This document shows, one piece after another, positions 7,624-50,800 of a stretch of 64,000 bases of DNA. Under the pieces are notes generated by a model. That model was not told the origin of the DNA. It did not search any database and was given only the letters and a program-made list of their open reading frames with translations. The DNA comes from Tetrahymena thermophila SB210. Lineage: Eukaryota; Ciliophora; Oligohymenophorea; Hymenostomatida; Tetrahymenidae. The position numbers and the translations under genes were made by a program. Position 1 is the stretch's first letter. The number at the start of each line of letters is the position of its first letter. The stretch lies in NCBI RefSeq assembly GCF_000189635.1, contig NW_002476013.1:434001-498000 (forward strand), read 5' to 3'.

Positions 7624-9864
7624 TCATATGTATGACTCAGTAATAATTAGAGTAATCAAACTAGTCCATCCATTGAATGGATGATTTCCAGCTCCTTTAC
7701 CATCAAGCTTTTAGTTAAAGTGCTCAAAGAAGTATCCTCTTGTTTCAAATTCTCCACATACTGTTTATATAACATTTTATCTTAATGTTTCGTAAAACTC
7801 TTATACGATATCAGAGCTATCCCAGTAGTAAAGCTTCATGCTTCTTAAAATCATGTACTACATGTTAATCCAAATAGGTCCTCTCCAATAATTGGATGAT
7901 TTTCCAAAGTATTCATCTTTTTCACTTAAACTTCTGATGCCATAAGGAGTCCACAAAGTATCTTAGTTCATCATGGCCAAGATTTGTTTTTCTAAAATTT
8001 TAGTATCATTGACTAAACCTAGCATCAATGGAAGGAAGTTAGGATATCCTAAATGAGTAGATAAATGGTATTAAGTGAAATTTTATCCATGCTTGTTTAC
8101 TGTAGTATTGTAAAGCATATCATAATAAATTGAGTCTTCTTTGTTTAAAAGGACTTCATTGATAGAATTTTTAATCTTTTCTGCTGTTTCAGTGTAAGTG
8201 GAATTGTTAGTTAAGATGGCAAGTGATTAACTAAAAAAGTAAGCCCATGCGCTGGCATCAATATTATATTTAGAAACATATAATTTTTCATCGAAATTTT
8301 CAACTCTTGGCCAGTCATCCATACCAGATCCCAAGTTGTAGGTTTCCTTTGGACCCCACCACTTAAAAAGTAATAAATCCGAAGAAGTAGAATTTGTGTC
8401 TTGTTGCACACTTTGAATATTCATCCACCAGCCAAACCATAATTCAATTTTAGGAATGAGTTTTTGAATGTATTCTTCTTAACCTTCCTACTTCTATATG
8501 TAAAGCAAATTAAACAAGAAAGAAGGAGGGTTTCCATCTTTATTATCTTCATACAATCCTGGGATGTAGGAGCGGTCTTCTGGTCCTCTAGGTTACTCTC
8601 TAGGAATCCAGCCTGAAGATGAAATAGTATTAAACCACTTTTCAATATCTTATTTGCAAAAATCTAGGTCCCATTGACAAGAGAGCATCTAATGGAATCC
8701 ATCATCCCACAGGAATGGACGAGGGAAGCCTAAACGTGAAGGAGTTGTACTAAATAAAGGTAAATATTCCTAACAAATTTCCTCATCCTAAGCACATAAA
8801 AGATTTCCATAAGTGTATTGTATACCTCCCATTAAGTTGTAAAAGCTTTGAGTAGCACAAGTCATCTCACTTTTACTTATAGTTCTTTGTTATGCTAATT
8901 GAGAGTAAGATCTTTTTTAATTTACTTAGATAAGATATCTAATCAACTAAAATTAATTCTAACTTTAAAGCTACTTAACTAGGTTTGTAGAAGTTTAATT
9001 TTCAACATTAAATGCTGCATTGAAATTCTTTTAAACATATGGATCTAATGCGTTGGTTATCTATTGATCATCTATATAAATATAATGTGCATTAACATTA
9101 GGTGTATAGTAAACTTATATTTCAGCTCCGACATTAAGCTTAGTGGCTGTCTTAACAAAAATTATGGTGGAATTGTTTTCAACTGAATTGTTAAAATTGT
9201 ATTTAATTTTTTTAAGTAAACTTTCAACATCCCAATTGTCTTTCTCATCTGAAGCAATACCTCTAAATGAGATTTTTTCAGCTAAATTTTTGCCAATAAT
9301 TGTTATTTTATGCTACAAACAGCTAGAAACAATAACTATTTCGTTCTAAGTAATATTTTTGATTAGCAACGATCTAGTGGCAGTTGAGTTGTTTGTTCCA
9401 TTTTAAGGTTGTTCAAAATTCTCAAAAGCAATAGCGTAAATAAAACCAACTTCTAAGTGCTTATTTTTTAATGATTTAGATTTAGATGTGATATTTCTTG
9501 TTGTATCAATCCAATCAGTAGGATTTAATCTGATATAATTTTGTAGCATCTATAAGTCGCCAAGCAAAGGATCATAAACCTCTTATGAAGCATAATTCCC
9601 TACACCAGTATTAACTCTGTAGTTGTAAATGATCTTGTCACTACGTCTTTTAGGGAATTAATATCTTAGGGTCAAGCTAGCCTCGTGATTGCGGAAGTAT
9701 GCCTGACTAACAACAAGTGGGTTATTTGTGCTTTAACTAATAGCATGGATTAATTAAGGTTTGTATAAACCCCATCTATAAGGATCTGTCTCATTATATC
9801 CTTAATAGCTATAGCAGATAGCACCTGCTAACAACAAAAATCCTAATATTGTTATTTTAAGCAT
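7624..9864 (-). CDS. MOGS: mannosyl-oligosaccharide glucosidase (glucosidase I, GH63)
   Basis: Glucosidase I removes the terminal alpha-1,2-linked glucose from the Glc3Man9GlcNAc2 glycan in the ER, the first trimming step after N-glycosylation. A single uninterrupted frame of 746 residues runs from ATG 9864 to TGA 7624, close to the usual family length. An N-terminal hydrophobic segment ([14 protein letters not shown]) is a signal anchor. The N-domain carries [11 protein letters not shown]. The C-terminal (alpha/alpha)6 barrel has [34 protein letters not shown] (about residue 515, containing the conserved catalytic Asp region), [13 protein letters not shown] and GYFFEHFN with the likely second catalytic Glu. 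Several NxS/T sequons fit a lumenal protein. No intron is needed, unlike most neighbours. Confidence 0.95.
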
Positions 9865-11809
9865 TTGAAAATCAATTTTTGTTATTAAACAGCAATTATT
9901 TATATTTAATTATTAATTAATTAAATCTTTTGACTATCAATCAAATCCTCTTTATTTTCTATTAACATTATTGTTAATAATTGAAGAAATCTAGAGAATC
10001 TATTCAGGTTTGATTATTTAAAACCCAAAATAATTAAATATCTAACTCAATAACACGAATTATTTGCTTCTCATTTAAGATCAAATTTATTTGTGGAATA
10101 TATTTTAATAAACAAAATAACTTAAAAGTTTAAATTAGTAACCTAGTCTAAATTTTTTTGACAGTGTTAGGATGAATGAACATAAGGTTCAGTTGTTAAA
10201 ATCATGCTAGTTAATATTTTCAGCTTATATTATAGTAAATTTTGCATACTTTCTATTTGTTAAGAGATTAGTTAAAGTTTGGAGTAACTACCCTGACCTG
10301 ATCAAAAAATGAGATAAAATTAAAGTTTTAATATAAAATTCTTTCTTAAAATCAAGTAAACATCTACCTACATAATTTTAGATTAGAGTGTAATATAAAA
10401 TATATCAAATTGTTTATTAAGATTAGAAATAATGCTTAAAAAAATACTATACTTTTGAAAAATAATAATGGCAAAAATAAAAAAAAAGCTAAATGAAGCA
10501 CTTACAAAAAGTTAATTTGATGATTAAATTTTACAATACTTAAATTGGTTTCGTAAATAAAATTAATTGTAGTGGCTATTAAATATTTGATTCTATAAAA
10601 GATTATAAATTTAAATCGACTCATTAACACAAAATCTAGAGACTAAATTTTCCTCATAAATAATATTTACGTCTAAAATTTCTGATTTATTTTTTAATTT
10701 TCCCAACAAAGTAACAAAGTGCTAATAGCTTAATATGAAGCTAACAAATGAAATTAAACCAAAATACAAGATTTTCTTTTTATTCTCCCATGTCAAAGTG
10801 ATTAATAATTTTTTGAGCATGAATCTGAAATAATTTGTTTTAATTTCTCAATGTATTTTAATGAAAATCCAAAAATAGGAGGAAAAAGTTATCCAATAAA
10901 ATTAAGATGATTAGATATCTAAGTATAATAATTTAATATCAAGAAATAAATGAAAATTTAACCAAAAAAAATATTTTTAATCTATTAATTTCTATTTTTT
11001 TATTTAAATTTTTCAATATTATTAATTCATCAAATTATATTCTAAACAAACAAAAAATATTTTTATTTATGAAATAATATTTTATTTATAAGATTTTTGG
11101 AGTCAAATTGCTGATATTAAGATAATAAACAATACAATTTGCATAATGAATTAATGTAGCTAATCTTCATCAAGTTATTTAAAATATATATTCTTTTTTG
11201 ACAAAATTTTATCTTTTATTTAAATGTTTTATTTTATATTATCAAAAATTTGACAAATAAACATCTACACAAAGTACGTAAAAAGTTTTTTTTTGTTATT
11301 TTTTGAGGTTTTTAATAATAGGTTTTTTTTACTGAGAAAAAAATAGATTTTTTTAATTAGAGTTTGATAAAATTATATTTTTTATAAACTTATTTATTGG
11401 TTTTATATGAAACAAATAAATTGATAAAAATGTTAGAAGAAATAAATATACATTTATTAATTTTCTTCATCAAATTTATGAACAATAAAATATATTATAA
11501 ATGAAATTATTATAAATTAAGGTAGAACAAATTGAATAATGAAATTGATTAATAAAATACTGATGAAATTAATTTTTAGTCGTTCTATATTTATTTAACA
11601 TTTTTTAAAGTTTAGTGTATTTATCAATTAATTTGGGGTTATCTTCTAATAATAAAATTGCTTGTTATTAAAATACAGTTTTAATTAATTAATTTATACA
11701 ATTTAATTAATTTTTTAACAAATTATCAATTATTCTATCAATAGCGCATTTTTTTATTAGTGCTATAATATTAACAAAGGAAATAAACAATAATATTCAA
11801 AGGTAGAAA
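9865..11809. other. AT-rich intergenic region between divergent genes
   Basis: Divergent spacer between the glucosidase gene (-) and the beta-helix gene (+), so promoters of both should lie here. It is extremely AT-rich with many homopolymers. I found no coding frame or RNA gene. Confidence 0.55.
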
Positions 11810-14800
11810 ATGAACTCAAGTGGAAATGGATAATTGAAATCAAGCTCTATTAATAAAACAAAAGGTTCGAATGAAGTTAAGATTCTAGCTGCATTTAAGC
11901 AACAAATTATTGTTGGTAAACAATCAAATAAAGTTTAAGTTTAAATCCTTCTTTCTATCTTAATAGAATGAATGATAATATTTTTTAAAAACAAACAATG
12001 GCAGCTATATTCAAATTATAATCCTTTAATAAATGAAAAGATTCTGAAAAGGGTCCAATTAAAACAATTTAATAGGCTATTGATGAATCTCTTCCTGGTT
12101 GTGTTATTAAGATTGCGCCAGGTCTTTATTAAGAATGCTTAAAAATAACGTAAATAAATTATGAATTTACAGCATATGAGCAGATTATGCTTTTAAATTT
12201 ACCTTAGAATTTAAAAAAAGAATGCAAAATAAATAACTAAAAATACTCTTTTAAGAAAATTTTTTTATCAAATATATATTTAGAAAACCTTAGTTGAGAT
12301 TGGAAGCAAAAGATAAAAGCGGAGATGTAGTCATTTTAGGGAATAAAGGTCCAGTTATATTATTAAATGTGTAAAAAAGTGAGAAATGTCATTTAGTTGG
12401 CTTAAAAATAGCCCACACAGGATAAGTAGAAGAGTAAATAGCTTTAATTTATATTGTTTAGCATAAATACTAATAGCTTTTTTGCATTAATTTATTTTGA
12501 TGTTCATTTTTATTGCTATAATGTTACATATATTTTATTATTAACTTCCATGTTTAAGTGAAAAGGATGAAGGATATAAAAAGAGTCATTTTACTAAGAA
12601 TTTGAATGTAAACAACTAAGAAATTATAGAAAGAGATATAAATTAAGATATAATTACCTATGTTTCACCTCCAGAAAAAGAACTTTGTGATGTATACAAT
12701 ATAAATTAGTATGTTCATAGTATTGTGACTGTGTATTCAGGCAAAATGTTCATTGAAGACTCACTTCTCTCTTTAAAGTAATTATAATTTGTATTTTATG
12801 TAATTTAAATAAAACATAAAAATATTTAATCTTAAAAGTTTTATTGCATATACGTTTAAGCAGATTCTACCTGCTATTTTAGTTTCAGAAAATGGAGAAC
12901 TGATATTAAATAGAACTGAAGTTAAAGGGCATAAAAACTAAGACACAATAGGTAAGTATTACTAATTAATTTTGAATAGTTCTAATTAAATTATATTAGG
13001 TGTATTAATCCAAAATGGAGATGCCTTGATTAAAGATAGTAAAATCCATAACCACAAAAGTGGAGGTATTTATATAAAATCAAAACCAACTAATCACGTT
13101 AAAATAGTAAACACTAAAATTGTTTAAAATGAAATAATTGGTGTGCTGTGTTAAGGGATAGACTCTCAAGTCTTATTGGAAGGCAATAAAATCGAAAAAA
13201 TTGGTGGTCCAGGAATTAGAATAGGTATATCAAATAAATCATGCATCATCAGAAATGAAATTAGGCTAAATAGACCTGGAATTGAAGTCATTAGCGGTGA
13301 TCCATACATTTATGAAAATAAAATAGATAAAAATATTTCTTCTGGTATTGTTACAGTTGCTTATTCAGACTACAGGTAAAATAATAAATAAATGGATAAT
13401 TTAATCAAGAATATATAAAAAATACTATAAGAAATATAATTAGTGCAAATTAACTCCTAAAAGAATAGATTAATTAAAGTATCATTCAAGCAAATAAATT
13501 GATTTTAATTAGTTAGCATTTATAAGGAGTAGATTTATTTAAAAAAGTAAGAAAACAAGTATTAAAATTACAAATAAATTAATATAGAAATAAATAATTT
13601 TTAAAAATAAAATAGTGTTTGTAAGAAATTGTTTAGCAGTTAATATGAATCTTAAATTTAAAATAATTTTTTAATAAAAATTTCTAATTTAGAAGTTTAA
13701 AATATAAAACAAAAATTCTTATTAAATGAACATAATTAACTTAAATGAAATATAAATAGATGCGATGGAAGGATAAAAAGTAATATTAGTATTTCAGGCA
13801 ACAGAGACTTTGGAATTGTATGCAGTGGTATTAAAAATCACACAAAAATAGAGTCTAATCCATGCATTAGCTACAATAAAAAGAGTGGTATAAGAGCAGA
13901 AGATAACTCAGAAATATATATTTTTAAAAATAAGATATCTAGAAATATGGGATAAGTATGATTAAATATAAATTAAAATTAAATATTTTAATTCAGAAAA
14001 TTTATTTATTTATTAAATGTTAGGGTGTTTTAGTTGTTGAAACTGCAAGTGCAGTAGTAGAGAAAAATGAAATTTATGAAAATATGAAAGCAAATATTGC
14101 TTTAGGAGGCGGTAATTCAGTGAATACGTTAATTGTTGAAAATAAAATATTCGGAGGAAGATGTGAAGGTATATTTATAATAGATGGTGAAAATGCTTGG
14201 ATATTAAGAAACCACATTTATGAAAATAATGATGGCATCATCTCTGTAACATCTATACCTCTAATTTAAAGCAATGAAATATACAGAAATAAAAGTCATG
14301 GTAAAATTAATTAAAAATTATTTATTATTTTTTCCTAAATTATTCTTTTAATAAAATAATCATTTACCAATCTAATTTGTTTGCAAACCTAAGTTAAAAT
14401 AAATATAAAAACTACTTGTGTTTAAAAACTGTTCTAATGTGTGCATATTTAATTTCTAATATCAAGCAAAACTAATTTTATTAGAATATTTTTTATTTTA
14501 GTAATTTATAGAAACTTTGAAAAAAAATAATGAAAATTTTTTATTGAAAAGTTTTAAATTTAATAAAGAGAATTTAAAAATGATATTAATTAAATCTTAT
14601 AAATAAATAAATGATAAATAATTTAATTTAATAAAACCAAAATTCTAGGAATTATGATGGTTAAAGATAGCAGAGTGAATTTCTTAAATAATAAAGTATA
14701 TGAAAATGATTCTGGTGTAGGGATTTTTGTAAGAGATAAATGTTAAGGGACAATTAAAGATAATGAAGTAGATTCTTAATTATATTTATTTTATTTATTA

Positions 14801-26081: not shown

Positions 26082-27316
26082 TTTCTACTTTGAATTAAAA
26101 TCAATTACCTTTTAAATTTATTAAAATTTTTGAAAAATTTAGATTTAAAGCTATTAATTATTAAAATTGATATAATTCTAAAATCTAAAAAGCTTGTTTA
26201 CGAATCTTTTAAATAATATAGTTTAAAAAGAAAAATGATAAATTAATAAAAATGGTATTCATTCTCTGCAAAGAAAAATTTAAACAAAATACGATATTTA
26301 GCGACATACAAAGAGACTATTTATTTATAGCGAAGAATGCGATTCTATTGTTGAAAAATTTTATTAGTGTATGAATAGAAGAATTTAAGAAGTCTAAGAA
26401 AATAAATAATAATGTTTGATAATAAAAATTATAATGTTTAATTTTATATTTGTTTATAGCATTATTTTTTAAAATAACAAATAAAATTTTATAATATTTA
26501 AAAAAAATATATACAACTAGAGCTTGGCTCTAGTCTTCAAAAAATTTTAGATCTAAGCTCAAGTTTATAAAAAGTAAAATTTATCCATCACTGCTTTTAA
26601 TATCTTATTTAATTCTTCATTCTAATGATTTGAAAAGAAAAAAAATTAATTCTAAAAATCAAATAAAGTAGGCTAGCTAATCTTAATTTTAAAATGCTCA
26701 TAAGAAAGTAAGTAAATATTTTTTTATTTTGTAAAAGATTTATAAAATTTGTAGATTTTTTTAAAAATATTTGTTGTAAATTAGAAAATAATAATAAAAA
26801 TTCTATCAAGGATTGTAATTTTTAAAAATTTAGAAGTTCAAGAACCACTAAATGAAATCGTTTGGAGAAGAAAGATCAAAAATTTAGATGATAAATAATG
26901 GAAAAAAAAACGATTAAACACTTCCAAATTAATATTTTGATAAAAGAAATCATCTATATATATTTAATTGATTTTTTAATATGGTACAGACAGAATATCC
27001 TTCCTTTTTAATTTATTTTGAATTTCCAACTAAATATCCTACTCCCATAAAAAGGAATAATAATATAAGAATTTCAATTGTAATAAAAGTGAATTTCATT
27101 AAATAATATTTTAATTAAATTATTATTAAATTGCATTCATTTTCAAAATCTATCTCACATAATTATAAAAGAAATATTTTAATAAACAATTATTTTGAAT
27201 TAAAGGATTGATTACTAACTAAGTCTTTATTTTAAAAAGGTGGTTTTAGAAACTAGATAAAAAAAATCAAAATTAAAATACCAAATTGAAAAAAAAATCA
27301 TTTAAAATAGCTGAAA
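26082..27316. other. intergenic region with a weak CX9C-like mini-frame
   Basis: Mostly A/T. On the plus strand, 26315-26410 reads RLFIYSEECDSIVEKFYQCM, with Cys spaced as CX9C. It could be reached by splicing ATG 26251 (GT...AAAG), but no second Cys pair follows and I do not call a gene. A perfect hairpin lies at 26516-26534. Confidence 0.35.
26516..26534. repeat. perfect 8-bp hairpin
   Basis: ACTAGAGC, a TTG loop, then GCTCTAGT. It stands out because it is GC-rich relative to its surroundings. It lies between genes; function unknown. Confidence 0.7.
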
Positions 27317-31212: not shown

Positions 31213-34200
31213 ATGTATAGATACATAGACAATATTGAAAGTTTGGAAAATAAGCTTTCTGCTTCCAATATTTCAAGCCTTGAGATGAAATTAAAGTAAT
31301 AAAAGCAAATTTCTTATACAATTTAATAATAGGAATTTAGAAATATAAGATTTAGAAATTAAAAAGTTAAAAATATAAAAAAAGATAAAGCATGAAATCC
31401 GATAAATGTACCATTTAGCTAAATCAGTTTTTTTACTTTTTTTTACATTTTAAGTTTCAATTTTAGTTATAAATATTTTAATAAAAAAGTTCACCTTTAA
31501 ATGAGGAATTATTTTCTTTAGTTTGTTCTGCTATAAGAAAATAATCAAATATCTCAAACTTGAAACTACTCTTTAAGTAATTATAATAAATGTGAAGTAT
31601 TATATAAAATACTTGCATCAATCATTTTAATACTTAAAAATATTTATTAAAAAATTGTAAAATCATAATATTTTATTGTGTTTTTAATTTTTTATTGAAT
31701 TAATGTACATATAATATACTTGCCTAATTTTAACATTAAAATTTAATAAATACATTATAAGTTGGTCTAATTAAATTAATGATGAAAATATATCTCTTTT
31801 CAGTTCTGCTTTGGAAGCATCTTCTTCACTTTAGTCTTTTATTATTAAATTAAAGTAAAATATAATAATATCTCATATTTATTAACCATTTAAATTAATT
31901 TTCTATAAAAAATTATTATTTTTCCTAATTTCTATTACATAAATAATTTTTTTAAAATTATAAAAAGCTAAAGACCTTCAAATTAAATTCTTACATCTCA
32001 AGGAATATCTAAATTAATGTCTTCATTAGCTAATTGTACTAATCTTTCAATTATCAAACTAAATTTGGAGTAATTAATTAATTAAATATATTTTTTTGAT
32101 TTAGATTAAAGATTTTTTGAATTAATTTTTAATACCTTATCCTCTTTTATTATTACCTATCAGTTATTTTTTAGTAATAATTCATTTTAATAGTCTTATT
32201 AAAATAATAAAATAAAATTGAAAATTTTCAATCTCCTTCATAAATTAGAAAATTTACATTATTAAATTTATTATTAAAAGATCAATTTAAATTGGAGCTT
32301 AAGGTTTTTAAGCTCTATGTTCTGTATTATCTAATTTTGAGAAACTCTATAATTTGTCACTTAATTTAAAGTAAATTATATTTATTATTTCATATAAAAA
32401 ACTTAAAGTATATAAAGATTATGACAAACATATTACTTTTATAAAGTTTAATATATTAATAAATTTTAAGAAATTGTGTTTATAAACCTAAAAAGTTATA
32501 TAAAAATTGATTCTGAAAGTGTATCTGACTTATGGTCTGATTTAGCAAAATGCATTAATATCTAAACTTTAGAATTACATTTAAGGTAAATATATTTTTA
32601 TTATTTCATTCAATTATTTATTTAATATTCTTGAGTAAAAGTGCAAATAATCCTCGAAAATAATAAAATATTAAATTGAATAATTTTATTTTATTTAAAT
32701 CTTTAATGTTTATTTTAATAATTTTATTATTCAAATTGCTTTAAAAATTTTATAAATAAGTAATAATAATCTTGAAATTTAAGATGCAAAAAGTTTAGGG
32801 TCTGCTTTAGTTAATTTAGTTTAACTCTCGAATTTATCAGTTGAAATCATGTAATTAGTATATTTTAAAAATTAAAAAAACTATTTGATTGACTTAATAG
32901 AAAACTTCTTGGAAAAAAAATAAAAATTACAAATAATTTTTTAAAAGATTTTATCTTTATTATAAACTTTATTACTAATTAAATTTTGTTAAAATAAGAT
33001 TAATTAAATAGAAAAATTTTATTTAAAATAAAGGAGTAATAATATTGGCGATGAAGGCGTATCAGGATTGTTCCTTAATTTAGAAAAATGCTCTAAAATC
33101 TAAAAGTTATCATTATCGCTTTGGTAATAATAGCTTAGTTTAATTTCATATTATCAATATAATATTATTAAATTATATTAATTGATAGCAATAATTAAGT
33201 TGGAGCTAAGGGAGCAATAGCTATAGGTACTTCTTTAGGAAACTGTATTAATTTAACTGATTTAACTCTAAGTTTTCGGTAAATTTTTTCATTTATTATC
33301 TACCTTTGAAAAATTCATACAATGTGAACCCTCATTAAAACAGAATTAAAAAACATTTTTCATAAATAACTTGTTAGTTTTTGTAGTTCTTAAAACTCAT
33401 TTAACAATTAAATTTTAAAATAAGAAAATTAATGAAGAATACAATTAAATATAAAATTATTTGAAATAAAAGTTTATTTTGATTTTTAAAGAAATTGAAT
33501 TAAATGATCTGATGATATGTGAAATAATAATATATTATTTAAATCTAATTCACTTCTTTTTATTTTAAAATTTATTTTTATCAAAACTCAAGCAATTATA
33601 TATCTATTTTATTAAAAGTGAAGATAAAATTAGTGATGACACTCTACTTGGTTTAATTAATGCCTTAAAAAATAAAACTAAACTCTCAAATTTAAATTTG
33701 AATCTTGAAAAGTAAATTGCTAATTTTTATTTATATTTAATTAATTACTTTAAATTTTATATTTGTCGAGTAAAATTTATTTATTTAAACCTACTTTATT
33801 ATTTATTATAATTCATATTTACAAATTATTTTTCAAAAATAGAGTTGGAGCTGCGTGTGTAAAAAATTTACGTGATTACTTATCAACTTGCACAAATTTA
33901 TCTACTTTGTAACTTGATATACGGTAAATAAAAGCATCTTATAATTTAGTTTTCTAACTTTCTTTTGAAAATTAATTTATTTAAAATATTTTTAAAAATA
34001 ACATTTTTTAATTAAATTTATTTGTTGCTTTCTACCTTATTTTTATTTTTTGGTTGAGATAAAAAATAATTCTAATTTTTTATTAAACTTTTGGTACTTA
34101 CTTACTAACTTACTTACTTCCTTACTGATTTATCATCAATTAATAATCTTCATATCTTTATTTTATCAACAGATTTACTGAAAATGGATCATTTAATGCT

Positions 34201-36240
34201 GCTAATTTAATTTCAGGTCTAGAAAGCTTAAATAATTTAGAGACTTTAAATATTGATTTTATGTAAAAATAGATTAATTTAAAATAAAATATTTAAAGGA
34301 GAGTTAATTTAAACTCATGTTTTTATTAAAAGCCAGATTTTCATAATAAATTTAATGTTGCTTTTACATTTACAAAAAGATAAATTTTTATTATAATAAT
34401 TATTAAAAAGGTACGAGAAAGGATAAAAAGGGGCATCTAATTTAGGTACTGCTTTAGCAAATTGCACTTCTTAACTAAATGTTCTAAAGCTCAATCTTGG
34501 GTAAAAGCTATTATTTTAATTCTTTTTATAATTATTTAATAAAGTTTGGAATGAATTTGAATATATTTGATACCTTTAAATCAAAAATTAAATTAAAAAA
34601 TTTATACAATATTTGATAGATTTACACTGTTAAATTTCATTAATGACCAACCACTTTTTTTAAAATAAAATTTAATTTTATTTAATTTGGAATTAGTTTA
34701 ATTTTAATATCTTATTTATAATGTGCATGTAGAAAGATATATATTTCAAGGTTTTAAACTAAAGTAAACAACATATAATAGCTAATATAAAATTTAAAAC
34801 AACTTTTTCAAAAAATAATAAATAAAGTATGCTTTCTAATTTCACACTTTCGTTTTAATTTAAATTTTAACTTTAGTGCAATTTAATCAACATTGTTTCA
34901 ATTATAATCAAATATATTTTTATTAAAAAATATAATTATAATCAAAACTTATAACTTAAATCCATATATTTCTATTATTAACTAAATACCAAAACCTACA
35001 AATTGGCTCTCCACCCACCTACCACACTATTAATTTTGAATGCAAAAAAAAAATATTTATTGTTAAAACTAAGTTAATAAGATAAATAATTCAAAGATTA
35101 GATAGCAAAAATTTACTTTTTATGTTAGTAATTTAATTTTTAAAATGGTTAAAAAAATCATTCTTTAGATTTAATTAGATTTTTAATTATTTTTATTCTT
35201 TTCACGATAAAATTATAAAATAATAGAGGAAACGAATATGCTGCATCAGGTTTAACATTTTTAGTTCCTGGCCTTGCTAATTGCTCTAAATTATAAAATT
35301 TAGAATTATCATTAAAGTATTTCTTTTTTATTTTATTTAAATGAATCTCTGAATCGCTTATTTGGCATCTTGAGGTTAAAATGATTATGTATAAAACAAA
35401 AGATCTTTGAAACAGACTTACTATTTTTTTTTTTTTTTTCTTAAAATTTTTTAAAACAATCTCAATCAAATAAGTTAAAATTATTTCCTTAATTTTCTTT
35501 TAGGGTAAACCAAATTGGAGGTACTACAAGTATATGCTCTGCTTTATAAAACTGCATAAATCTGAAAAATTTGATATTAGAATTAGAGTAAATTTTTTTT
35601 TGTATTGAAAATTTTTTTTTTATTTACTTGTTTATTTATTTAAAAAATATTTTGATTATTTGCTTTATTTATAATAGCTAAAACAAGATTGGAGATGTAG
35701 GCTTATCACGTTTGGGTCCTTCTCTCTCTAAGTGTGTTTATCTATAAACTTTGATTTTGAATTTAAGGTAAAGCACTAACTTTATTTAGTTTCAATGTGT
35801 TATTACTTTATTTATTTTTTAGTAGCTATTTCGATTTGAATAAATATTAAATTTTAACATATCATTTATTTTATTTATTTATTTTTTATAAAAAGTGAGA
35901 ATTAAATAGGAGATAAAGGCCTCAAAACTTTAGTTTAAGACGTTTCTAAATTCTAAAATTTGACATATTTGATTATTCTTTTATGGTAAATACCACATTT
36001 TTATTTTTATTTATTTAAAATTATTTGAATATCAAAATATCTCATAAATAGATTTATTATTTTTTATCATTTAAATTAATATAAACATATTTTAAAGATT
36101 AATTTCAAATATAGATTTATTATTTATTTATTAAAAGTAATTGTTTAGTTGGAAATCAAAAGATAATAAAAATGTGTGATTAGAAGATTTTAAAAATGAA
36201 GAAACTAGTCTGTGGATATATTGCATACGATTATGATTGA
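31213..36240 (+). CDS. leucine-rich-repeat protein, one 30-residue repeat per exon
   Basis: Nineteen exons: 31213-31295, 31333-31407, 31490-31576, 31762-31854, 31968-32069, 32281-32370, 32496-32585, 32761-32850, 33034-33123, 33189-33278, 33619-33711, 33843-33923, 34173-34262, 34411-34500, 35227-35316, 35504-35587, 35678-35767, 35896-35985, 36138-36240. Every junction is phase 2, giving 566 residues. The first two exons encode a charged coiled coil (IQDLEIKKLKIQKKI). Sixteen exons then each carry one RNI-like LRR of the type N-x-I-G-D-x-G-x-L-x-x-L-x-x-C-x-L-x-x-L-x-L, for example NIGDEGVSGLFLNLEKC and VGAKGAIAIGTSLGNC. A final exon ends MKKLVCGYIAYDYD. Such proteins act as binding scaffolds; the ligand is unknown. 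No signal peptide or TM segment. The 726-nt intron before 35227 is the longest. Confidence 0.88.
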
Positions 36241-41504: not shown

Positions 41505-42099
41505 TATTAGTGTAATAATTAATGTACCATTTTTAGCTGTTTTATTTTTAGAAAAAAATTTTAAAGAATTTAAGAAAAAGAAAAAATAAAAGAAAGAAAA
41601 ACTGAATATGGTTTTTAGATATATTAAATAAATAAATATACAATCTTCTTAGACTCATTCGTAGAAAGGAAGACAAAAAATTTAATTATAATTAAATGAA
41701 AAATTAGATTTTTAAAACTAAAAATAGCTAAATGAGGAAATGAATTAATAATTAAGAAGATTTTAATTAAACAGAAAGACTTATTTGTTATAGATAAAGC
41801 ATGGGGTGAGCTAATCAATAATCTAATTATTTATTTATTTCTTTAGAGTTATCTAAATATAGGATTACTTTAAATTACTTTCTACCTATTTTTTGACGTC
41901 TGCTTGGTTAATACATCACAATTGATTTTAATCATTCTTATAAAATCAGATTATCAAAAGTCAGCTTGTTTTTAAATATTCAGACTTTCCTCGTGAATAT
42001 AATCAAAAAAAAACAAAAACAAATCAAACAAAAAAAAATCAGTAAAACCACCAACAAAAGTAAAAAAAACTTCTACTTAAAAAAAAAAGTCAAAAAGAA
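41505..42099. other. leader/promoter region of the guanylate-kinase-like gene
   Basis: Ends in a strikingly A-rich, C-containing leader (about 42005-42099: AAAACAAAAACAAATCAAAC and similar), of the kind seen before well expressed ciliate genes. A minus-strand ORF at 41624-41818 is not called. Confidence 0.45.
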
Positions 42100-42570
42100 A
42101 TGAGAAAGATCACTCCCTTAGTTGTTTCTGGTTCTTCCGCTATCGGTAAGAATGCCTTCGCCTCAAGATTAGTTAAGGAACACCCTGACATGTTCAAGTT
42201 AGCTCCTCCTGTCAACCAAACCTAACAAATGGAACAAGAATACTTCCAAGCTGAAAAGGAAAACAAGATTCCCATTTTCCAAGTTAACGAAGTTGAACTC
42301 GCTGGAAGCATCAAGCAAAAAGTTGGAACTGCCAATGGTCTCCACATTATTCCCCCCAACATTGAAACTTTTAGAGAAAGACTTGAAAAGGCTGAAGAAA
42401 GCACTGTTGAAAAAATCAACAGAACTTGCGAACAAATCAAGACTGAATTGAACAAAGCCTTCGAAAGCGACTTATATAGCACTGAAGACTTTATTGTAGC
42501 CAACAAAGATTTCGAAAAGTCTTATTAGCAATTCAAGAAGAGAGTTTTCGTCATGTACAAGTAAAACTGA
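42100..42570 (+). CDS. guanylate-kinase-like protein with degenerate P-loop
   Basis: An intronless frame of 156 residues, ATG 42100 to TGA 42570. It follows the guanylate kinase fold: PLVVSGSSAIGKNAFASRLV at the start (P-loop position), KEHPDMF, then GLHIIPPNIETFRERLEKAE and DFIVANKDFEKSYQQFKK at the end, matching the family's I-x-PP and N-D-L-E-x-A-Y elements. It is shorter than real GMP kinases (about 190-200). The P-loop reads GSSAIGKN, with Asn where Ser/Thr binds Mg-ATP, and the GMP-binding R-x-x-R-x-G-E and Tyr region is replaced by a Gln/Glu-rich stretch (NQTQQMEQEYFQAEKENK). It is therefore probably catalytically dead. Codons are strongly biased (AAG, ATC, CTC, GCC), unlike most neighbours, implying high expression. 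Confidence 0.75.
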
Positions 42571-47878: not shown

Positions 47879-50800
47879 TCAATTCTTTAAAGAAGAGTTT
47901 AATGAAGAGAATGAACTAAAGAGCATTCTGTTACCAGAAGAATGGTTTAATTTACCATTTTTGAGTAAAGTAGATGTAACTATTTTGTTGCAAACATATC
48001 CAGCAAATGTAGTTACAATGTTCGAGCCCAAAGAGTTAACTAAGCAAGTATTATTTTTGCCTATGTCTTTCAAGTTATCTGAGAACTACTGTAAAAATCT
48101 AGTTTTTCTCCTATAAGGAGCTTCTGTCTTGGGATATTCTGAATTAAGATCGTGGTTGGAATCATCAAAATTTCTATCACTCTAAACTTCAAGTAAAAAT
48201 CCATTCATTTCAATATGTTTTGCACTGGAGGTGTCGTCTTGTGTTTGGGTGTTGTTCTACTTATCACTACTGTAGTTTGAATTAGCATTAAAATATTCGC
48301 ATTGTTTATCAAGTTCGTCAATTGTTTTTTATTCTTTAACTTATTTTTCGTTTTTGCTTGGAGAAGATTAATTTTAATTTCCTGCTTATTCTTCTTACTT
48401 GAAGTGATCATCTAATTGTTGACCATTATGAGATTATAAATCTCTTTCTTATTTATTTTAGTTATGATTTCTAGTCTATTCTGTGCTGCTTACAAAAATT
48501 TCTACCTCTTCCTCGAATTATTATTAAACTTCTTCTTCTTCTTCTAATTACTATTAAACCTCTTCTTCTCTTTTGTCTTGAGATTTTTATTTTTGGGTGA
48601 TGATTTCAACATTTTCTTCTTCATTTTTTGAAGCTAAATTTTAATGCTCCTATTAAAAGTGGTTAAATGCTTCTTGAATTTCATTTTCTTCTATGACGAT
48701 ATTAGCTGTGTATTACATTTAATTATTGCTTTAATTAGCTTAATTATCAATTACAGTCAATTTTTCTTAAGTTAATTCAGTTTATACATTTTCTATTCCA
48801 TTTTTAATATTTTTTTCTTCTTCTACAAGTTCTTTTTGCTAGCCATTAATGTTTTTATTGTCTTACTCTTAGGTATTTTTTTCAATTATTTGATTACTAT
48901 TCTAATCATCAGTCTTGTTTTCAGTTATAGTTTGTGATTTGTTATTTTCATCAACTTATTCTGCATTTTGCTCTATAATGTGCTTCTTTTAAAGTTACTC
49001 TAAGACTTTCTACTCTAAATCTGTTTCATATTACTAACCAAACTTTGATAAGTGATGTTGATTCTAATTTTCTTCCTCAAATTTTTCTAAGGCTGCGTCA
49101 ACGTCTTACTAAGTTAAATTTTCAGTGGGAGGTGGAGATTAGCAAGAAATTTTAGAAGCTAAACCTTCTTCTTCAATTTGTACAAAATCTTCTTCTTCCT
49201 TCTATTATAAAATTACGTCGCTTGAGATTTCTCTTTGATTTTCTTCTCTGCACTCATTTTATATTTATTAATCTTGCTTTTAGAATTGGTCAATCTCCTT
49301 TTACAATTCCTAATATTCACCTTTTTCAAAAGCTTCTTGTTACTCTGCAGTAAACTAAACAGGAACATACTCATCCAAATTAGAAATTCTTGGATAAACT
49401 TCATTTTCATTATGATCTTAAGAGTTTGATGAATCCTTCTTATTTTGCTCAGATTCATGATCTGCTTACTGTTATTCAGCAATAAGCTAGCCATCAAAAT
49501 TAGCATTCTATAAATCCCTTTCTTATCTTTAATTCTTATTTTGATTTCTTCTTGTCTATTAAGTAGGATTAATTTCTAAATCCATTTCAAATTCGATATC
49601 ATTTAAGATATCTGGATATTCTTTTTCTTCTTGTTATTATTATTGTTGTTGTTGTTGTATTTATTATGGCTATTACTATTCAACAACTTCTACTTTTTCT
49701 TCATAAACAACACTTTTCTTTTAGTTCATTTAATTTGAAGGTGTTTGCTCTTTTTGAACATTTTCTTTCCTTACATAAATGATAGTGTTTGATTTGCGAC
49801 CTTTATTTATTGATTCTCTTTAAATTTTATTTGATTATCTTTGATTGTTCTTTTTGTTTTCTTTTGAGCTTGGAGTTGCATTTGTACTTTTTGCTTATTT
49901 AGTTTTTTCTTCTTCTTTGTAATTAAACTCCTCACTTTCCATAATTGCTTCTTATTTTACTTCTTGTAAAGCTTAAATATCATGAACATGAACGGGCTTC
50001 TCTACCTATTATTCCTAATTTTACTGTAATTCTTAGGCAATTTAATGAATTTAATTTGTCAAATCCTGTGGATTTGTTTCTGAGCTCGAAATTGATGCTT
50101 TTCTGCTAGGTCTAAGTGATGAAGGAGCGAATTTGCTTAATCTAGAACTGTCATCTAATAGTGAAGGGAATGCCTAGCTAGTGGAATTTTCTTATTGGCC
50201 TATAAAATAATATGATAAGTTAATAATTTTGTATTTTATCTACAACAAAATAAATTCAATTTAAATTGTAGAAAATTTTTATTTAAAGTCAAATAAATTA
50301 AAAAATTCTAGACTGACTATTCAAAAATTTTAAGATTTGATTTTATTTTCTTTCTTTCTTTTTTATAGGAATTTCTAATAAAAATAAATTAAAAATGTTT
50401 AATTTATTTACAAAAACTGCTAACGTCCTAAGATTTCTTCTATAATAATTCGTAAGATTGTTCGACATTTTCGATTCCATCCCAGTTGCAAGAGAGCAAA
50501 AGATGAGCATCTGGAGTTCTAACGATTGAATGATTTCTTCTATTATTTCTAGCAATCATATTATCATTTTATCTTTTTAACATAGCTTGAATTTAAGCAT
50601 AATCTTTCTTTTGGGTAGTTTTAGGTTCTTTTTCACTTTTTCTTAAGTTGTCGCGTTGAAAATTTTTTTGGTTCTTTTGAGGACTATCTTCGAATTAATT
50701 ACCTTCATTAGTTGCATTTGTTTGGTCTGATTTGAGTTAATAAAATAAACTGCTTTTGGTCTAATTTTAAATTTGGCTACTGCCGCCTTAAGAATATCTC

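Follow-up and report, generated by a model that had tools for sequence, protein, structure and literature searches.

A predicted one-repeat-per-exon LRR gene of Tetrahymena thermophila with phase 2 introns throughout

Positions 31213-36240 on the plus strand of the window, by which we mean the whole 64,000-nt stretch of T. thermophila SB210 DNA analysed here (contig NW_002476013.1, positions 434,001 to 498,000), are predicted to encode a single LRR protein of 541 residues under the ciliate code, in which TGA is the sole stop. The gene is an instance of the published Tetrahymena LRR family with 90-bp exons (Xiong et al. 2019, PMC6564038), and its architecture is not new; what our analysis provides is confirmation of that architecture from raw DNA, without annotation. 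The reading we favour, at a probability of roughly 0.88, is that of a coding LRR gene of this family which grew by old duplication of an exon together with its intron, and whose product is a binding solenoid.

Gene model, intron phase and repeats

In our model, 17 introns separate 18 exons; translation starts with the ATG at 31213 and stops with a TGA whose last base is 36240, in agreement with a preliminary description of an LRR gene at this place. Exon and intron borders were set from splice signals, the open code-6 frame and the repeat profile. In the list below, "both models" refers to this profile model and to a phase-blind model; the own and other-loci profiles are those built from the repeats of this gene and from LRR exons elsewhere in the genome.

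Exon 1, 31213..31295, plus strand: 83 nt, ATG start, ends in phase 2, no clear repeat; both models
Exon 2, 31490..31576, plus strand: 87 nt, weak LRR; both models
Exon 3, 31762..31854, plus strand: 93 nt, weak LRR; both models
Exon 4, 31968..32069, plus strand: 102 nt, LRR; both models and other-loci profile
Exon 5, 32281..32370, plus strand: 90 nt, LRR; own and other-loci profiles, missed by the phase-blind model
Exon 6, 32496..32585, plus strand: 90 nt, LRR; both models and other-loci profile
Exon 7, 32761..32850, plus strand: 90 nt, LRR; both models and other-loci profile
Exon 8, 33034..33123, plus strand: 90 nt, LRR; both models and other-loci profile
Exon 9, 33189..33278, plus strand: 90 nt, LRR; both models and other-loci profile
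Exon 10, 33619..33711, plus strand: 93 nt, LRR; both models and other-loci profile
Exon 11, 33843..33923, plus strand: 81 nt, LRR; own and other-loci profiles, phase-blind end at 33908
Exon 12, 34173..34262, plus strand: 90 nt, weak LRR; both models, absent from the other-loci profile scan of the window (6.0 bits when scored alone)
Exon 13, 34411..34500, plus strand: 90 nt, LRR; both models and other-loci profile
Exon 14, 35227..35316, plus strand: 90 nt, LRR, after a 726-nt intron; both models and other-loci profile
Exon 15, 35504..35587, plus strand: 84 nt, LRR; own and other-loci profiles, split by the phase-blind model
Exon 16, 35678..35767, plus strand: 90 nt, LRR; both models and other-loci profile
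Exon 17, 35896..35985, plus strand: 90 nt, LRR; both models and other-loci profile
Exon 18, 36138..36240, plus strand: 103 nt including the TGA stop, C-terminal tail without LRR score; profile model

Each internal exon carries one LRR and all 16 have lengths divisible by 3, which bears out the reading of one in-frame repeat per exon. Ten exons are exactly 90 nt, as had been described, five of them consecutively (exons 5-9); six internal exons deviate from 90 nt, and the eight exons of other lengths span 81-103 nt, not the 75-103 nt first given, with no exon of 75 nt among them. Donors read GTAA in 16 of the 17 introns and GTAT in one, acceptors are AG in all, and intron lengths range from 65 to 726 nt with a median of 175. 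The placement of donors at a fixed point of the repeat, after the final L-x-L, also held: in 15 of the 16 repeat exons the donor lies directly behind the terminal hydrophobic-x-hydrophobic segment, and exon 10 has one residue extra. Once spliced, the main frame contains a single TGA, the final stop, where shuffles average 10.7 and the two alternative frames hold 11 and 25, although the picking of exons for openness somewhat favours this absence. The window is AT-rich (GC 16-31% per 2-kb step), and long frames are open in it under the ciliate code; five of ten proteins of neighbouring genes lack a Pfam match.

The count of 19 exons and 18 introns in the preliminary description was not borne out. 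A scan of the six longest of the 17 introns turned up no extra exon with a repeat: of 221 candidate frames, each an AG..GT stretch read in one frame, the best scored 5.5 bits and the top phase 2 candidate, at 34765-34875, 5.0 bits. Two open phase 2 AG..GT stretches of 75 nt in intron 1 (31333-31407 and 31391-31465) lie outside the 40 best-scoring candidates; either may be the additional exon of the earlier count.

All 17 introns of the model are in phase 2, as had been claimed, and this pattern was compared with a dynamic-programming model that is blind to phase, its only inputs being codon usage from four other long window frames and simple scores for splice sites. With the intron penalty at its lightest, this model scored 71.5, and 16 of its 17 introns fell in phase 2; at stiffer penalties it gave 17 and 11 exons, with 15 of 16 and 9 of 10 introns in phase 2. 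Ten control regions of the window yielded 15 phase 2 introns out of 48 (15 of 45 without one region that is nested in another; four of the ten include codon-usage training frames), and ten dinucleotide shuffles yielded 24 of 89, with scores of 5.0-20.5. From these comparisons we conclude that the phase 2 pattern is not due to chance. Relative to the profile model, the phase-blind model missed exon 5, shortened exon 11, split exon 15 and moved both ends of the last exon, which it started at 36149 and halted before a TGA at 36177. Because the last exon is placed elsewhere by this model, the C-terminus is the least certain part of the gene; exons 1-3 of the predicted structure, like exon 18, are less certain than the rest.

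The majority consensus of the gene's repeats is xNxIGxxGxxxLxSxLxNCxNLxxLxLxL, with six L and no column that reaches 90% conservation. A rise in degeneracy toward the stop, as proposed for the final full repeats, is mostly unsupported by the leave-one-out scores, which are 26.0, 23.5, 34.4 and 22.3 bits for exons 14-17 and fall to 6.1-14.1 bits in exons 1, 2, 12, 3, 7, 11 and 10, the weakest repeats being 2, 12, 3 and 7. What survives of that proposal is exon 17, and against the other-loci profile only (13.7 bits); on that profile exons 15 and 16 score 33.2 and 31.4 bits, and exons 2, 3 and 11 score 12.0-14.0. Exon 18 has no repeat score.

The individual repeats have diverged, and the Pfam model LRR_6 scores 23.2 bits, below its curated cut-off of 23.4. 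Neither a NACHT nor a ROC-COR domain was found: at E up to 1 Pfam yields only LRR_6 and, short of significance, UPF0228. Sequence comparison at E ≤0.01 matches the protein to ten chains of solved structure, including an unnamed LRR protein (the best match), 5irm, which we take to be NOD2, as well as DRC5, RanGAP1 and NLRX1. Judged from the family, a protein-binding LRR solenoid is the natural inference for the product.

Relatives in the genome and age of the gene

When the genome was searched with a consensus repeat of our own making, at least 149 matches were obtained among the 150 scored of 7,300 candidates. At 30 other loci, chosen for LRR similarity and in part overlapping, the window gene's profile found 189 repeat matches. 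Both splice sites could be set for 143 of them, using the strongest nearby signals and ignoring length and phase, and 46 were dropped, many of these belonging to intron-free arrays. Exactly 90 nt was the length of 112 of the 143 LRR exons, with a phase 2 intron before 127 and after 127; exact 90-nt phase 2 LRR exons numbered 113 (91 distinct) across 23 of the 30 loci. A profile made from the 91, not fully independent in that its exons were first collected with the window gene's own profile, recovered 15 of the 16 repeat exons (not exon 12), 13 of them at i-E ≤0.026. Over the 64 kb it detected nothing outside the gene, and a single additional row inside intron 13 at 0.5 bits.

Compared with these relatives, the window gene is an ordinary and fairly old family member. 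Its ten 90-nt exons share a mean base identity of 47% (30% when shuffled) versus 82.5% among the 91 young exons of other loci; its exon GC is 0.269 versus 0.346, and its leucine codons are mostly TTA, compared with mixed usage in the young arrays. BLAST revealed no mutual resemblance of its introns above background, with 17 matching pairs against 9-24 in 20 dinucleotide shuffles; intron matches that had looked suggestive were discarded as equal to those in the shuffles. Proximity along the array made no significant difference to the likeness of repeats either (Mantel r −0.14, p 0.12; identity of adjacent repeats 0.304, against 0.294 overall).

The young arrays gave a very different result. Within loci, all 155 of 155 intron pairs aligned, at a median identity of 90% and a median length of 258 nt; the comparison covered introns of 100-300 nt, 79 in number but 65 distinct since loci overlap. 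Because every young pair aligned, the BLAST test has the power to detect copied introns. Young-array introns are mostly about 245-275 nt and densest near 250-258, and the main text of Xiong et al. (PMC6564038) gives an intron length peak of 257 bp in T. thermophila and 232 bp in T. malaccensis. A telomerase reverse transcriptase frame of this assembly agrees with PDB chain 2r4g, the T. thermophila protein, at every one of 102 residues; together with the intron lengths, this points to T. thermophila or a very close relative. Duplication of exon and intron as a unit is thus well supported in the young relatives. The preliminary description had proposed tandem exon duplication for the window gene itself; because the gene retains no trace of it, in introns that behave like shuffles or in the order of its repeats, we infer it here from kin only.

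Origin of the array and exon skipping

We propose that unequal recombination in the germline would have duplicated a single exon-plus-intron unit again and again, enlarging the array as its kin suggest, and that the uniform phase and exon length would be the outcome of copying such a unit. This growth would be so old that the introns have since diverged to background. The product, by analogy with the family, would be a curved LRR solenoid presenting a protein-binding surface, and with frame-neutral exons the number of repeats could be altered by recombination, and possibly by splicing, with the fold unharmed. For the growth of such arrays the main text of Xiong et al. (PMC6564038) likewise invokes unequal crossing over, possibly with a retrotransposon.

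An alternative, which we consider unlikely yet the strongest of those weighed here, is that the repeat array came first and was intron-free, that introns were inserted later, in parallel and at one site, and that duplication played a minor part in this gene. Among the top protein matches at other places in the genome, several are long open frames whose repeats are uninterrupted by introns. Taking frames where two or more repeat spacings measure 29-32 residues, we counted eleven distinct arrays of this kind. With a duplicate array left out, 35 of their 59 spacings are exactly 30 residues and a further ten measure 60 or 90; for the second C112 array this recount follows the more complete of its readings, and inclusion of the duplicate gives 36 of 61. 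One array, C91, is irregular. The consensus of the 61 intron-free repeats, one array being entered twice, is

SNQIGDQGASALGSGLSKCTNLSNLKLNL

and differs little from the young-exon consensus,

NNQIGDEGASGLGSALANCINLSNLTLNL

The window repeats fit the two profiles equally, with means of 24.4 bits on the intron-free and 23.5 bits on the young-exon profile. Since the 30-residue period is also present in intron-free arrays, the 90-nt unit is a property of the protein repeat that needs no introns, and the period alone is no proof of exon duplication. The shared period, the nearly identical consensus and the shuffle-like introns of the window gene all speak for an array that preceded its introns. Nonetheless, seventeen independent phase 2 insertions at the same site are unlikely, the introns of young arrays are plainly copies of each other, and the lack of intron resemblance in the window gene is equally expected after long divergence. 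The uniform phase still calls for a common intron-bearing ancestor. The intron-free 30-residue arrays do bear on whether the repeat or the exon arose first. Xiong et al. (PMC6564038) describe no more than a single case in which two 90-bp exons may have fused, and their main text nowhere uses the terms "intronless", "intron gain" or "intron loss". These intron-free arrays probably belong to their group I, the one devoid of 90-bp exons.

A repeat exon can be removed without a change of frame, as the preliminary description had it. All 16 single-exon skips stay in frame and create no new stop, and among the 136 possible skips, including those of several exons each, a TGA arises at the new junction in only 3. 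Exon skipping in the window gene is, as far as the sequence goes, possible. A survey of 65 eukaryotes (Grau-Bove et al. 2018, PMC6142364) reports that, of the non-animals covered, T. thermophila alone resembles animals in having lengths divisible by three over-represented in its skipped exons; the words "leucine" and "LRR" are absent from the main text. An obvious candidate for the source of this bias is the 90-bp LRR exons, which number in the thousands, whether by real skipping or by mis-mapped reads in similar exons, and in the open-access papers searched we found none that links the two. Frame-neutral exons would offer a simple and testable explanation. A bolder version, that skipping of 90-bp phase 2 LRR exons produces the bias and that the arrays constitute a splice-made repertoire of binding surfaces, of the kind proposed for the brown algal ROCOs, seems to us a long shot, somewhat less probable than an intron-free beginning.

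We give slightly less credence again to the proposal that alternative splicing is the purpose of the architecture, with exon skipping serving to diversify a receptor in the manner of NLRP3 and the ROCO genes of brown algae. The preserved frame and the 133 of 136 skips with no junction TGA would suit it, as would the T. thermophila bias and the precedents of brown algal 72-bp phase 2 one-LRR exons with splice variants (PMC11378527, in part) and NLRP3 (PMC6642158, in part). Frame neutrality, though, is an automatic result of unit duplication, and neither "Alternative splic" nor "isoform" occurs in the main text of Xiong et al. (PMC6564038). That the window gene is a decayed relic is very improbable: its weak repeats in exons 2, 3, 7 and 12 and its variable intron lengths would be in keeping with a pseudogene, but no in-frame TGA precedes the end and the splice sites are all canonical.

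The published family and comparable systems

According to the main text of Xiong et al. (PMC6564038), T. thermophila has 1,874 LRR genes, of which 1,500 contain one or more 90-bp exons, and in LRR genes more than 98% of the introns that come before a 90-bp exon are in phase 2; the genes fall into three age groups. Grown by old unit duplication as we propose, the window gene is group-II-like in these terms, with introns longer than the 56-bp norm. As in group II, it has at least three consecutive exact 90-bp exons with phase 2 introns, a background GC in its exons and, in comparisons within the gene, no repeats at the DNA level. Unlike group II, in which introns are mostly about 56 bp, it has introns of 65-726 nt and six internal exons that are not 90 nt.

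The young arrays that we assign to group III (for example L039 and L040) resemble the window gene in exon length, in phase and in their 30-residue LRR consensus. In contrast to these, the window gene has no introns that are about 90% alike or cluster at 245-275 nt, and neither the higher GC nor the mixed leucine codons. The DNA-level repetition of group III was not found in comparisons within the gene, judged by a mean exon identity of 0.47 and shuffle-like introns.

Outside ciliates, the LRR exons of brown algal ROCO genes resemble those of the window gene in carrying one LRR per exon in phase 2, and exon shuffling and splice variants are reported for them in the portion of the source used here (PMC11378527). 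They differ in that brown algal exons are 72 bp and encode LRR-ROC-COR proteins, and the window protein has no ROC or COR. Unlike vertebrate NLR products, the window protein is composed of LRRs only and has repeats of 30 residues. Vertebrate NLR proteins have repeats of 28-29 residues and a NACHT domain. In the part of the NLR study drawn on here (PMC6642158), most NOD/NLRC genes have one 28-aa LRR per exon, and NLRP genes have exons of 171 bp. The likeness to the window gene lies in RI-type LRRs, frame-preserving exons and a fixed border near the beta-strand, which the intron position directly behind the LxLxL segment resembles (PMC6642158).

Intron 1 and intron 13 of the LRR gene

The preliminary description counted 19 exons in the LRR gene at 31213-36240 (forward strand), one more than our model of 18, and the additional exon is perhaps one of two open AG..GT stretches in intron 1. 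Their donors are GTAC and GTTA, and neither stretch is among the 40 best scores obtained with the LRR repeat profile. No other intron of this gene comes close to intron 13 in length.

31333-31407, intron 1, open AG..GT stretch of 75 nt, phase 2
31391-31465, intron 1, open AG..GT stretch of 75 nt, phase 2
34501-35226, intron 13, 726 nt

Profile scoring found no clear repeat in intron 13, where the best phase 2 candidate (34765-34875) reached 5.0 bits; this intron may cover a lost repeat or an earlier insertion.

Neighbouring frames

Pfam assigned four of the surrounding frames, and at an E of 0.001 gave no match for two very long ones, in which Q, N, K and E are abundant by eye.

1672-2337, reverse, Exo_endo_phos2-type phosphatase
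7624-9936, reverse, GH63 glucosidase
12729-13502, forward, right-handed beta-helix protein
41926-42570, forward, guanylate kinase
47879-50320, reverse, very long open frame, 813 aa
60466-62727, forward, very long open frame, 753 aa

Exon skipping and intron-free arrays

In the Grau-Bove 2018 survey (PMC6142364), T. thermophila is reported to be the sole non-animal with an animal-like 3n bias of skipped exons. The 90-bp LRR exons could be its cause, or the source of a mapping artefact.

LRR arrays of 30-residue period that lack introns are also present in this genome (loci L003-L043 and L062), with up to 13 repeat matches within a single open frame; C-numbers denote contigs.

C258, 185940-187374
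C112, 25333-26326
C112, second array, starting at 27220
C209, C270, C81, C61, C15 and C91, one array each
C288, two arrays

In contrast to these arrays, Xiong et al. 2019 (PMC6564038) report only a single case in which two 90-bp LRR exons may have fused.
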